In this document: positions 5,407 through 62,249 of the stretch, piece by piece
Layout of the letters: every line of letters begins with the position of its first letter
Numbering within the stretch: position 1 is the stretch's first letter
Origin: Gammaproteobacteria bacterium
GTDB lineage: Bacteria; Pseudomonadota; Gammaproteobacteria; Steroidobacterales; Steroidobacteraceae
Direction: 5' to 3'
NCBI GenBank assembly: GCA_947452065.1
Contig: CANGBB010000001.1
Location: 1-64,000, forward strand
DNA: 64,000 nucleotides
Translations under genes and position numbers: made by a program
The notes under the pieces: model-generated
What the model was told of the DNA's origin: nothing
What the model saw: the letters and a program-made list of their open reading frames with translations, nothing else
Databases searched by the model: none

Positions 5407-8400
5407 ATGGCAATCACAATCAACGTTAAGCCTTCGAGCGGCCACGCCAAAGGTAATTCTCTGGTTCTGCAAAAGGGCGTTAACAAGATTAGCGTCGCCT
5501 CAGGCGATGCAGTCCAGGTTGTGGATTCGGTGTCTCAGCAGGTTCCCGCGGATGCAGTGATGCATCGTGTGGGCAACGTGCTGGTCGTCGAGATTCCCTC
5601 TGAGGGCGTGCGGGCCGAGTTGGATGGCTTCTACGCTTCCGACGACAGCGGTAAGAGTGCTTCGATCGTTCTGCCTGACTTCGCTTCCTCGGGTGATGTT
5701 GCTGCTGCCTCGCTGGCGCCGCAGTCTCTTTCACTGGCCACTGAGTCGCTATCGTTCGTCACTGCCGATGCTTCCTCGGGCGGTGGTTCTTCGGGCAGCG
5801 GCGCTGCCTCTCACTCGGGTGGTCTGTCCACAGGGTGGCTGATTGGTGGTGCTGCGCTCATCGCGGGCGCCGCTGCGGCCGGTTCGAGTGGTAGTAAGTC
5901 CACGACCACTGCGGTTCCGGTTCCGGTTCCGACTCCCACTCCGGTTCCGGCTCCGGCTCCGGCTCCCCTGGCTGTCAGTGCCATCACCGCTGATGCTTCG
6001 GTGAATGAAGGTGCCGCTACGGTTGTCAAGATTCAGACGAATCAGACTTCTGGAACTATTTCCTACACGCTGTCGGGTACGGGCATTGCCGCTGGCGACG
6101 TGACGGGCGGTGCGCTCACCGGTTCGGCTTCGATCGGTGCTGATGGCATTGCGACCGTTCAGATCAATGTCGCTAATGACGTTTCGACCGAAGGCGCTGA
6201 GACGCTTGTATTCACCGCGGGTGGCAAGACGGCGAACATCACGATCAACGACACTTCTCTTACTCCGGCGCCAACGACGACCTTCAACCTCACAACGTCG
6301 CAAGACAAGGTTGCTGGTAGCTCACTCAACGACACGATCAACGCGGCGACCGTTTCAACTCTCACCGCGCTCGACAGCATCGATGGCGGAGCGGGCACCG
6401 ATACTCTCGCCATTTCTGACCCCGCCACAGGTGGGTCTACTATCAATTTCAACTCAGTTACTCTGGCCAACGTCGAAAACATCACCCTGGCCTCTGGCGG
6501 TGCTACCAGCATCGACACGACTTCGACCAATGTGACTGGCCTGACGCAGGTCACTGTGTCTCAGGCAACCTCGGCGACGGTGACTGCTGGAGCAACCACT
6601 GGCGTCTCGGTCAATTCGTCAGGCGCGGCTACGGTTAACGGCGGCCTTGCGGTCTCTGTGACCGCTGCAGGCACCACGAGCGTCGGTGCGACCACCGCTG
6701 CTGCCGGTGCTGTTAGCGTCACGAACACGGGCGCCGCTGCGGCCACCACAGTTGTGGGTGGTACTTCTCAGACGATTACTGCTGCTGGCGCAGTGACGCT
6801 GTCGAAGTCCTCGGGCGCGGTTTCCGTGACGGAAAGTGCCAACGCCGCGCAGACTATTGATGGAGGCACGTCGGTGACCGACGTGGCTACTTATACGCTT
6901 CTCTCTGGTAATACAGGCGGCACCATCACAGTTGGCGGTACCACCAAGCCGACGGGCGCCGTCACCATCACTCAGAACACCACGGGTGATGCTAGTGCCA
7001 ACCTCTCGGGCGACCAGGCCGCAGCCGGCATCACGGTGTCGGGTGGAACGACCGTTGCGGTCACGAGCAAGGTGACTAGTGGTGCTGCCGCGACAGCCAC
7101 CGCTACAAATTACAAGGTCTCTCAGGGCAACGTATCAGTGACCGGTGGTGGTACGGCCACCTCAGTTAACGTGTCCCAGACTGCAAAGTTGGCGACGGTC
7201 AATACCGTGGCGGCTGGCACCGGCACGGTCGAGGTTGATACCGTTCAGTTCGGCGCTCTCAATGCTGGAAGCTCAATTACGGTTGCAGGCTTCACCCTGT
7301 ACAACAGCACTGGTGGCAACCTGAATGGCAAGCAAGTTGCCGCTGCCTATGCGAACCTGACTAGCACGCAGTTGAGCTCAGGTGGTGGTTGGTCCAGCTC
7401 CGCCGCGGGCGGTACGGGTTCCGACACGGTTACCTTCACTGCGGCGAAAGCTGCGGCTTCTGCTGCCATCGTTGTGACGGGTACTGGTACTTACAGTGGT
7501 ACCGTGGCTGCAGTCACTGCAGGTGTGGCCGCTACCACCGCCACGGCTGGTGTGATGGGTGTGGACGTCGGGACTGTGACTGTCACCGATTCTTCAGCTA
7601 CCGTCGCATCGGTCACGCTGACGAACTTTGGAAACTCGACGGTTACCTCAGACGCACTGACAAGCCTGAGCCTTACCAACACCTCCGGCAGCGGTAACAA
7701 GGATGGTACCGTTACTGTCACCAACACTAAGGCGACCACTCTGGATCTCACGGTCAACGCAGGCAAGGGTGGCATCGGAACTGTAGACTTGGGCTCTACA
7801 TACACGACCCTGAAGGTTCATACCTCCGGTTCGGACTCCACGCTTGACAGGCTGACTGCCGGCGGCGTCACGTCTTTGACGATTGATGGTACCAACCAGT
7901 TGAAGCTGAGTGCCAACACGCTCACGAACCTCAAGACGGTTGCGGTATCCGGTTCAGCTTCTGTGAATGCCAACCTCAGTGCATCCAGCAGCTTGACCTC
8001 GGTTGATGCCTCTGCATCGACCGGTAATAACTCCGTGACAATTGGTAATGGCGTTACCTTCGCCGGCGGGTCAGGTAATGATTCGCTGACCGTCGGTGCT
8101 GCTCCGACTGCCGCAATCAGCGGCGGTGCTGGTACTGATACCCTGACGTTGAACTTCGCTGGCGGCGCTGGATACGCATCGTGGCAGAACGTCTACACCA
8201 GTGGCTTTGAGACGCTCGGTCTCGGTGCGTCCGGAAGTGGCACTTACGACGCCTCGGGCTTCACCGGTCTGACTCTCGGCTTAGTTACGGCTGCGGTCGA
8301 ATTCAGTAACGTCGCTGCGGGCGCAACATTGGCGCTCACGGCCAGCCCAGGGTTCAATACGACGTATACGCTGAAGGACGCTACTGGGTCGTCAGATGCC

Positions 8401-51740: not shown

Positions 51741-52175
51741 TCAGCCTCCGCCCATGCCACCGCCGCCCATGCCGCCACCACCGCCGGTGTCGCCGCCACT
51801 ACGGCCAGCGCCACGCATGCTCTGCATGTAGGCGGTGAGTTCTTCGACGGTCAATGAGCCGTCTTTGTTGGTGTCGGCAGCCTTGAAGCGGTCCGCCATC
51901 GACATGGCGGCCGGTGCGCCGGCTGCTCCAGCGGTTGCACCGCCAGCACCACCGCCACCAGCGGCAGCACCGCCCGCACGCCCGACGGTCATGGCGCTGA
52001 ACTCTTCGAGGCTTAGCTTGCCGTCGTTGTTCTTGTCCAGTTCCTTGAAGCGAGCCGCCGGATCCATGCGGCCAGCACCCTTACCGCCAGCGCCGTCTGC
52101 CGGCGGTGCGTTCTGCGCCAGCGCCAGGGTTGCGCCAGCCATCAGCACCGCAGTGGTCATGATCTTGTTCAACAT
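51741..52175 (-). CDS. Secreted EF-hand calcium-binding protein with Gly-rich tail
   Basis: This 144-residue protein starts at ATG 52175, which has GGAGGGG at a proper distance, and has a signal peptide MLNKIMTTAVLMAGATLALA. Two EF-hand loops follow, DKNNDGKLSLEEF and DTNKDGSLTVEEL, separated by an Ala/Gly-rich linker, and the end is GGGGGMGGGGMGGG. It probably binds Ca2+ in the periplasm or outside the cell. It stands alone, convergent with the polysaccharide cluster. An ATG two codons upstream is possible but too close to the ribosome binding site. Confidence 0.82.
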   Translation of the reverse strand: MLNKIMTTAVLMAGATLALAQNAPPADGAGGKGAGRMDPAARFKELDKNNDGKLSLEEFSAMTVGRAGGAAAGGGGAGGATAGAAGAPAAMSMADRFKAADTNKDGSLTVEELTAYMQSMRGAGRSGGDTGGGGGMGGGGMGGG

Positions 52176-52368
52176 GTTCATCCCCTCCGTGAAGGAAAAA
52201 AGGTCAATGAAATAGTGACCTGCCGGAAGGTTAGGGCAGATCGCCCGGAGGGAGTTCCGGGATGTACGAAAATTCACTTTCGGTCGGCAATCTTTGCTCT
52301 GGCAGAGCAGGGGTGCATGAGGGGGCGTTGCGCGCGGTGGTGCGGCGAACCCGCTACAATTCAGGGAA

Positions 52369-52444
52369 GCCCCCGTAGCTCAGTGGATAGAGCGACCGCC
52401 TCCTAAGCGGTAGGTCGTCGGTTCAACTCCGGCCGGGGGCGCCA
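52369..52444 (+). tRNA. tRNA-Arg, anticodon CCT, with encoded CCA
   Basis: Seventy-six bases form a complete cloverleaf: acceptor GCCCCCG/CGGGGGC, D-arm GCTC/GAGC, anticodon stem ACCGC/GCGGT with loop CTCCTAA (anticodon CCT, codon AGG), T-arm with GTTCAACTC, discriminator G and CCA. A TACAAT box at 52355-52360 is a good -10 element. Confidence 0.96.
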
Positions 52445-52758: not shown

Positions 52759-53436
52759 GTGACCAACTCCAGCGATACGGAATTCAGGCAGAAGACGGTA
52801 CCAGCGTCATCGGACGAATCAGTCCGCGCCGAGTCAGATCGTCGCATGGACGGGCAGTTGGGCGCCTGCGCTGCACTTCGCTTTCTCACTGATCAGTTGG
52901 GCTACGGTGTGCTGATCGCCTCGCCGGAGGGTGAGTTGCTGCACTCGAATGCGGCGACGGCGGAACTGCCGTCTGGTGACTCACCGTTCAGTGTCTCCAA
53001 GCGGCTGCTCTTGGTCCAGGGCATGGTCTGCACGCAGTGGGTGGAGCAATTGCCGTCGGGCCCACATTTTTTCCGGTGTGCGGTCATTAAGCACCGCTCG
53101 ACCGAAAACAATAAATTCGATGCGGACTATCGCGTGGCGGTGACTTACGGCGCTCTGAAGCGAGCCGGCGATCCGATGGTCATGTGTGTGTATTCGACTC
53201 TGCTCCGTCGCAAGGTGGAGCCGGAGATTCTGCGCGCCCTGTACGGCCTCACGCCGGCCGAGGCGGCCATGGCCATTGGCGTCTATGACGGGCATTCGCT
53301 CTCGGATCTGGCCCGTGATCGATCCACCTCAATTCATACAGTGCGAACCCAACTGAAGCGGGTCATGAACAAGTGTCAGGTCCGATCGCAGCTAGAGCTG
53401 TGTCAGCTCCTGACATCCGGGCCCGGGGTGTTCTGA
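52759..53436 (+). CDS. LuxR-type helix-turn-helix transcriptional regulator
   Basis: This 225-residue protein has a C-terminal LuxR/GerE DNA-binding domain (LTPAEAAMAIGVYDGHS at about 165-181, then TSIHTVRTQLKRVMNK) and an N-terminal half with a PAS-like start (LGYGVLIASPEGELLHSNAA). It has neither an autoinducer-binding nor a receiver-domain signature. It starts at GTG 52759. It converges on a cassette of small double-glycine peptides and is the only regulator nearby, so control of that cassette is possible; a palindrome at 54156-54168 could be its site. Confidence 0.78.
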   Translation: MTNSSDTEFRQKTVPASSDESVRAESDRRMDGQLGACAALRFLTDQLGYGVLIASPEGELLHSNAATAELPSGDSPFSVSKRLLLVQGMVCTQWVEQLPSGPHFFRCAVIKHRSTENNKFDADYRVAVTYGALKRAGDPMVMCVYSTLLRRKVEPEILRALYGLTPAEAAMAIGVYDGHSLSDLARDRSTSIHTVRTQLKRVMNKCQVRSQLELCQLLTSGPGVF

Positions 53437-53590: not shown

Positions 53591-53794
53591 TCATGAGGTC
53601 ATGAGAAATACATCCATGCCGCACTGCTGGACATATTCGACGTACGCACGTTCCGCCACGCCGAGCTTGTAGCCGATCCACTTGAAGTAGTCGTAATAAA
53701 TGGTGCCGCCGGCCACGTGATCCAGCAGCTCTGCTGGCAGCAGCGTTGCCTCGAGGGGCAGGGAGCAGTCATTGACAAGCGCGTTTGAAGACAT
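53591..53794 (-). CDS. Small double-glycine-leader peptide (cassette gene 3)
   Basis: This 67-residue peptide starts at ATG 53794, preceded by GGAGGG eight bases upstream (inside gene 2). Residues 1-30 look like a leader ending LLPAELLDHVAGG, the double-glycine processing motif of bacteriocin- and microcin-type precursors. The mature part would be 37 residues, aromatic-rich (TIYYDYFKWIGYKLG), with one Cys. The reading overlaps gene 2 by 26 bases, so the three genes are probably co-expressed. No database family is recognised. It could be the second peptide of a two-peptide bacteriocin or a signalling peptide. Confidence 0.6.
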   Translation of the reverse strand: MSSNALVNDCSLPLEATLLPAELLDHVAGGTIYYDYFKWIGYKLGVAERAYVEYVQQCGMDVFLMTS

Positions 53795-53933
53795 TGATGA
53801 ATCCCTCCATGGAGTCAGTGATTTCTTGCAAGTAAGTGAACAGCAGCGCGAGCGTGACCAAAACGGCCAGTGTGAGGGGTCGCACACCCGCCTTTTCAGC
53901 CAGCTGCTGCCAAAGGGCCTTTAGGGACGGCAC
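53769..53933 (-). CDS. Small single-span membrane protein (cassette gene 2)
   Basis: This 54-residue protein starts at GTG 53933 with GGAG five bases upstream. It has a basic N-terminus (LKALWQQLAEKAGVR), one transmembrane helix (about 18-34, PLTLAVLVTLALLFTYL) and an acidic-amphipathic C-terminal part (EITDSMEGFINVFKRACQ). It overlaps gene 1 by 13 bases and gene 3 by 26 bases, which supports real coding. Its C-terminal motif YLxxIxDSxxGF also occurs in the gene 1 peptide, suggesting common origin. It may be an immunity protein or a third active peptide. No family is recognised. Confidence 0.5.
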   Translation of the reverse strand: MPSLKALWQQLAEKAGVRPLTLAVLVTLALLFTYLQEITDSMEGFINVFKRACQ

Positions 53934-54106
53934 ACGGGCTCCGCCGAGGGCATCTCTCGGCCCATGAAACCGGCTTCGAACCCGTCCCTGAATCCGCGCA
54001 GGGAGTCGCTGATCTTCTCGAGGTTGAGGTAGACGAACGCCAAACCGGCAACCCAGTAAGCACCGCCCGATACCTGATCGAGCTTTTCTTCGTTGAGAAC
54101 TTCCAT
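53921..54106 (-). CDS. Small bacteriocin-like peptide with double-glycine leader (cassette gene 1)
   Basis: This 61-residue peptide has an excellent AGGAGGG ribosome binding site five bases before ATG 54106. Its leader MEVLNEEKLDQVSGG is a textbook double-glycine leader (L-x(2)-E-x-L-x(2)-V-SGG). The mature 46-residue peptide AYWVAGLAFVYL... begins hydrophobic and continues with an amphipathic segment (KISDSLRGFRDGFEAGF). Such leaders are cut by C39 peptidase-containing ABC transporters; none is nearby, and the exporter at 1756-3873 seems to lack the catalytic Cys. Bacteriocin is the leading hypothesis; a signalling peptide is an alternative. Confidence 0.7.
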   Translation of the reverse strand: MEVLNEEKLDQVSGGAYWVAGLAFVYLNLEKISDSLRGFRDGFEAGFMGREMPSAEPVCRP

Positions 54107-54155
54107 ATTCCCTCCTGTTTGGGTGTGACTTGATGTCCGCTCCCGGGGCGGACAG

Positions 54156-54168
54156 GGTGCATTGCACC
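54156..54168. promoter_or_regulatory. Palindrome upstream of the peptide cassette (possible operator)
   Basis: GGTGCATTGCACC is a perfect 6-bp inverted repeat with a one-base centre, 50 bases upstream of gene 1 on the minus strand. A GC-rich hairpin (GTCCGC/GCGGAC, 54135-54153) lies between it and the gene. Either could act as a regulator site or leader structure. Confidence 0.4.
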
Positions 54169-54230
54169 TGATCAGTGCATCCCTCTGCCAGCCGCAAAAT
54201 GGATGTTGATGCACAGTTTCTGGGGTTGCT

Positions 54231-54260
54231 TTGCTCTTGGCTGGCCGGTTCCGCTAAACT
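54231..54260 (+). promoter_or_regulatory. Candidate promoter of sucAB-lpd
   Basis: TTGCTC (54231-54236) and TAAACT (54255-54260) are separated by 18 bases, about 60 bases upstream of the sucA ATG. Confidence 0.4.
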
Positions 54261-54319
54261 AATAGGCCCTCCAGGTCGCTGCGTTCGTAGTGCCTTGAGC
54301 CGTAAAGGTATTTCCGTCC

Positions 54320-59876: not shown

Positions 59877-62249
<2,373 letters not shown>

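Follow-up and report, generated by a model that had tools for sequence, protein, structure and literature searches.

Three short minus-strand genes overlap end to end across positions 53591-54106 of the window (the whole 64,000-nucleotide stretch of DNA that was analyzed). The question they raise is whether they encode a bacteriocin with its immunity protein, a secreted peptide signal, or nothing at all.

Organization of the cassette and coding evidence

The genes and their immediate surroundings were as follows.

53921..54106, minus strand: gene 1, a 61-aa precursor with leader MEVLNEEKLDQVSGG and a predicted 46-aa mature peptide with GxxxGxxxG
53769..53933, minus strand: gene 2, 54 aa, GTG start, a single-span membrane protein and candidate immunity protein
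53591..53794, minus strand: gene 3, a 67-aa precursor with a predicted 37-aa mature peptide with GxxxG
54107..54319: divergent intergenic region from gene 1 to sucA, 213 bp, assigned by gene order
52759..53436, plus strand: LuxR/NarL-type helix-turn-helix protein, 225 aa, convergent neighbor of the cassette
54320 (start), plus strand: sucA, divergent from gene 1

Genes 1 and 2 share 13 bp (53921-53933) and genes 2 and 3 share 26 bp (53769-53794); the leader of gene 3 has 30 residues and ends in PAELLDHVAGG. The lengths of 61, 54, and 67 residues, both overlaps, and the leaders were all exactly as first described in an earlier note on this DNA. By SucA sequence, the nearest named matches were 57-60% identical and belonged to Steroidobacteraceae or to unclassified gammaproteobacterial MAGs. 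The 213-bp divergent region is presumed to be the promoter region of the cassette; no consensus sigma-70 site was found in 54107..54319, and a promoter and terminator scan gave nothing beyond chance level. The LuxR/NarL-type neighbor, which matched GerE weakly (E 0.016) and NF040749 in its C-terminal part (E 1.6e-4), is a possible regulator of the cassette.

Elsewhere in the window, tRNA-Arg(CCT) at 52369-52444 was considered as an integration site and rejected, no flanking direct repeat of it having been found. Adjoining this tRNA gene is an EF-hand protein (51741-52277, minus strand), which probably has a signal sequence and ends in a tail rich in glycine and methionine. The minus strand at 59877-62249 encodes a 790-aa protein in which a very long run of glycines follows the signal sequence and the C-terminal part is peptidase-like by eye.

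Each gene possessed its own ribosome site, as had been claimed: a strong AGGAGGG directly 5' of the ATG of gene 1, a moderate GGCGGAG 5' of the GTG start of gene 2, and a GGAGGG upstream of gene 3, slightly far from its ATG. Codon usage was scored with frequencies taken from 18 long genes of this genome, and the assigned frame was the best of six for all 3 genes, with scores of 0.18 for gene 1, 0.15 for gene 2, and 0.29 for gene 3. The wrong frames on the same strand scored about -0.4 to -0.7, and all three genes were within the 5-95% range (0.07-0.60) of known genes cut in 62-codon stretches. Chance open frames would be compatible with the lack of a homologue in every collection searched, but the codon usage in 3 of 3 genes, the ribosome sites, the first and second ranks under the leader model described below, and the tiling of three frames with overlaps make chance an extremely improbable explanation.

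Leaders and mature peptides

A regular expression combining the leader, a ribosome site, and acidic leader residues selected just genes 1 and 3 over the 64 kb. We also built a leader position matrix from 6 leaders of peptides near C39 exporters in other Steroidobacteraceae, with genes 1-3 left out. Over 83 kb of this genome, which gave 793 open-frame groups, the matrix placed gene 1 first at 27.3 bits and gene 3 second at 14.4 bits, the next best reaching 12.2. Only the 6 training peptides outscored gene 1 in 670 kb of DNA from relatives, and about a dozen of the 5,666 groups there reached the score of gene 3, half of these being training peptides and some of the others likely leader peptides. 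The leader score of gene 1 is decisive, whereas that of gene 3 alone is near noise. TIGR01847, an NCBIfam bacteriocin leader model, accepted gene 1 (16.5 bits against a cut-off of 15.7). The Val-4/Leu-7/Leu-12 pattern of a C39 co-crystal peptide (PMC6363468) was present in both leaders, and the leader of gene 3 had Gly-1, Gly-2, Ala-3, Val-4, Leu-7, and Leu-12 as in that peptide. Genes 1 and 3 carry C39-type double-glycine leaders.

A whole-genome leader profile search revealed no further comparable leader; its alignment included gene 1, so its top match was circular. None of the full-length bacteriocin families of Pfam and NCBIfam reached its cut-off (PF10439, 16.3 bits against 27.1; NF038034, 13.5 bits against 37). 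A double-glycine leader alone cannot tell a bacteriocin from a signal.

The net charge of the predicted mature peptides was -1, whereas class IIb peptides are mostly cationic. In shuffled sequences, the GxxxGxxxG of the gene 1 core had a probability of 0.02 and the GxxxG of the gene 3 core a probability of 0.14. Structure prediction for gene 1 gave two helices with low confidence.

Gene 2 and its likeness to gene 1

The description of gene 2 as a single-span protein held, with one hydrophobic span at about residues 17-35 (Kyte-Doolittle 1.9). A single-sequence prediction (pLDDT 78) gave a short helix at residues 2-14 and a long one at 20-53. Assignment to the Pfam families Col_cuticle_N or Bromo_TP was rejected as below cut-off and implausible.

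Residues 28-50 of gene 2 aligned gap-free with residues 22-44 of gene 1 (LALLFTYLQEITDSMEGFINVFK / LAFVYLNLEKISDSLRGFRDGFE), with a score reached by 3 of 20,000 shuffles in a comparison chosen after the sequences were seen, which qualifies that probability. Gene 2 resembled gene 1 only. At the DNA level, the best match to the gene 2 segment in the window was the gene 1 segment (39 of 69 bases identical), with more identities at the second positions of codons (17 of 23) than at the other two (11 and 11). This likeness would fit either an old duplication or selection for a common residue pattern, and the data do not choose between the two.

An exporter in the same genome

The earlier note had advised a search for a C39-containing exporter elsewhere in the genome, which comprises 2.17 Mb in 10 contigs and is 96% complete, and this search recovered one, along with an HlyD-type adaptor and TolC. 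The sole C39 match is a 790-aa peptidase-ABC exporter with PF03412, ABC membrane, and ATPase domains (PCAT). Alignment to PCAT1 (4ry2) placed Cys41, His114, and Asp130 as a full catalytic triad, and their spacing is identical to that of Cys32/His105/Asp121 in CvaB (PMC9746304). The HlyD-family adaptor gene overlaps the exporter gene, and a TolC-type protein scored above cut-off. Exporter, adaptor, and TolC are all on contigs other than that of the cassette, and no double-glycine gene was found adjoining the exporter.

The exporter gene (L002:7642-10014, minus strand) overlaps the convergent gene for cytochrome oxidase subunit III (L002:6955-7839, plus strand) by 198 bp, its last ~60 codons being antisense to the 3' end of the latter, and its similarity to other exporters stops near residue 733. 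The antisense overlap and the end of similarity suggest a rearrangement that took away the exporter's own end and whatever was downstream.

Distribution in relatives

No homologues of genes 1-3 were found in a family-level genome search, which for one protein was extended to order and class level, and one of the three proteins had no homologue when scanned against the genome's own contigs. Matches with E values of 0.02-0.1 were discarded because they were inside longer, unrelated frames. Plasmids, phages, and viral contigs searched for the cassette proteins yielded nothing, as did PADLOC and the PDB. The author of the earlier note recognized none of the three sequences. The note had also pointed to sucA in related genomes as a place to look for the cassette; it was absent from there in 13 of the 13 same-genus genomes examined, and the cassette is lineage-specific.

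C39 exporters are scattered within Steroidobacteraceae. A C39 match with E <= 1e-10 was present in 29 of 217 genomes of the family, and among 15 same-genus genomes only this one and one other (G143) had a strong match. Several relatives in the family (L158, L161, L162, and L168) possess orthologous exporters, 47-49% identical to that of this genome. Peptide genes adjoin these exporters or lie a short distance away, and their leaders, for example MQVLTNAEIEQVSGG, are close to the gene 1 leader MEVLNEEKLDQVSGG. The peptides near those exporters, with double-glycine-type leaders and glycine-zipper-like cores, are located as follows.

L161:8082-8336
L162:9118-9309
L168:7827-8078
L158:12299-12526

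Their cores matched Bacteriocin_IIc and MccV weakly, under curated cut-offs, and they are candidate bacteriocins in their own right. Small membrane-protein frames lie near the peptide genes in L158, L162, and L168, overlapping the peptide gene by 23 bp in L162. An arrangement of peptide, small membrane protein, and exporter of the same type thus recurs in the family. In contrast to these relatives, the cassette has its peptide genes apart from the exporter. At another locus, L166, two double-glycine precursors lie in tandem beside a C39 exporter (7540-7698 and 7785-7946); their leaders are almost the same, and their cores are short (QRMIPTWVSGPNAKPDEWAYP and VRMEVTWTCGSQGKADEWDIKN).

Proposed function and alternatives

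We favor, with moderate confidence, an unmodified class II microcin-type bacteriocin operon in which genes 1 and 3 encode the peptides, gene 2 provides immunity, and export occurs in trans. The bacteriocin is probably a two-peptide one. The class II microcin features found were double-glycine precursors, a C39 exporter with its triad, and an adaptor and TolC. Gene 2, with its 54 aa, single hydrophobic span, and overlap with the peptide genes, is a candidate for the small membrane immunity protein. Encoding two leader peptides in a single presumed operon is a class IIb feature, and here gene 2 stands between them in the overlapping tandem. Killing, two-peptide action, and immunity are what we infer from these sequence features.

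Genes 1-3 would be expressed as one operon. The exporter on the other contig is predicted to recognize and cut the double-glycine leaders of genes 1 and 3, and the mature peptides of 46 and 37 residues would exit via the HlyD-type adaptor and TolC. Together they would probably act on the inner membrane of competitors, which is a weaker inference. Gene 2, as a 54-residue inner-membrane protein made from the same overlapping message, may protect the producer. Protection could involve gene 2 pairing with either the peptide or the target of the peptide, given the likeness of its C-terminal half to the peptide 1 core.

The two-peptide bacteriocin with immunity protein proposed in the earlier note thus stands as the best-fitting reading from the architecture, but its GxxxG motifs are statistically weak and its peptides are not cationic. 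Together with the position of the exporter outside the cluster, these two points weaken a strict class IIb reading.

The main rival is a peptide signal. In this reading the C39 system would export the peptide of gene 1, of gene 3, or of both, and the producer would sense what is exported; gene 2 would be part of a receptor or a membrane accessory, and the LuxR-type neighbor would serve as response regulator. Signals use the same leader type, a LuxR-type gene adjoins the cassette, and the mature peptides are non-cationic. However, that gene is convergent and outside the operon, no sensor kinase is among the immediate neighbors, and the exporter-linked peptides of relatives are glycine-zipper, bacteriocin-like ones. 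Two precursors with a small membrane protein are also better fit by toxin and immunity, and we regard a signal as unlikely. Held to be no likelier is that gene 1 is the bacteriocin and gene 2 its immunity protein, with gene 3 an independent double-glycine peptide or helper instead of an obligate partner. The likeness of gene 2 is limited to gene 1, the leader of gene 3 is longer and scores near noise, and microcin pairs in one strain can use a common export system (PMC9746304); yet gene 3 shares 26 bp with gene 2 within the same presumed operon, and the three recognition residues are in both leaders.

Peptides directed at the producer itself or its surface, like Neisseria Naps or Cdz-type surface aggregates, seem very unlikely. 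Double-glycine peptides of Gram-negative bacteria do not in every case act against other bacteria (PMC11798529); Naps promote producer autolysis. GxxxGxxxG is also in CdzC/D (PMC5380434). However, Naps are cationic, and small residues predominate in CdzC/D, which are far more glycine-zipper-rich than the peptides of genes 1 and 3. A more specific form of the two-peptide bacteriocin, in a Gram-negative host and with export in trans, would have as its immunity protein a membrane-anchored decoy copy of the producer's own toxin peptide. We consider this doubtful. Under it, the immunity gene is encoded between the two peptide genes, and the idea of a small membrane protein protecting by toxin imitation is open to direct test.

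Comparison with known systems

The cassette is new in sequence and ordinary in kind; its peptide-immunity-peptide order and its unlinked exporter are unusual. With class II microcins of the MccV/CvaC type from Enterobacterales, it has in common a Gram-negative host, a double-glycine leader, an unmodified peptide, and a C39 exporter with adaptor and TolC; those microcins have a small membrane immunity protein nearby (PMC9746304), for which gene 2 is the candidate here. It differs in that two precursors share an operon and flank the immunity candidate, the exporter is unlinked, and sequence similarity is confined to the leader.

The class IIb bacteriocins of Gram-positive bacteria, such as lactococcin G and carnobacteriocin XY, combine two GxxxG leader peptides with one small membrane immunity protein, a set to which genes 1 and 3 and the immunity candidate gene 2 would correspond. 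Full activity of a class IIb pair requires equal amounts of its two members. Gene 1 weakly matched the model for lactococcin G-beta/enterocin 1071B, at 13.5 bits against a cut-off of 37. In carnobacteriocin XY, the immunity protein CbnZ has 42 aa, and topologies of one to four spans have been found (PMC6957408). The cassette differs in its Gram-negative host, its non-cationic peptides, and its immunity candidate between the peptide genes; class IIb clusters contain the exporter and accessory genes, whereas here the exporter is on contig C3 and the cassette on C1.

McbC/McbI of Moraxella catarrhalis is a Gram-negative double-glycine bacteriocin gene overlapping a small immunity gene (PMC2761928), a likeness by description, although Moraxella has one peptide with the exporter genes in the same operon. 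In Caulobacter, CdzC and CdzD are two small exported GxxxGxxxG proteins accompanied by the small membrane immunity protein CdzI (PMC5380434). They differ from the cassette peptides in being 86 and 84 aa, rich in small residues, and described as RTX-like at the N-terminus; the Cdz system has a linked exporter, is contact-dependent, and its CdzI has three predicted spans. Class II microcins counted as verified number only ten and come almost entirely from Escherichia coli and Klebsiella (PMC9746304); the Steroidobacteraceae cassette extends the candidates to an environmental family.
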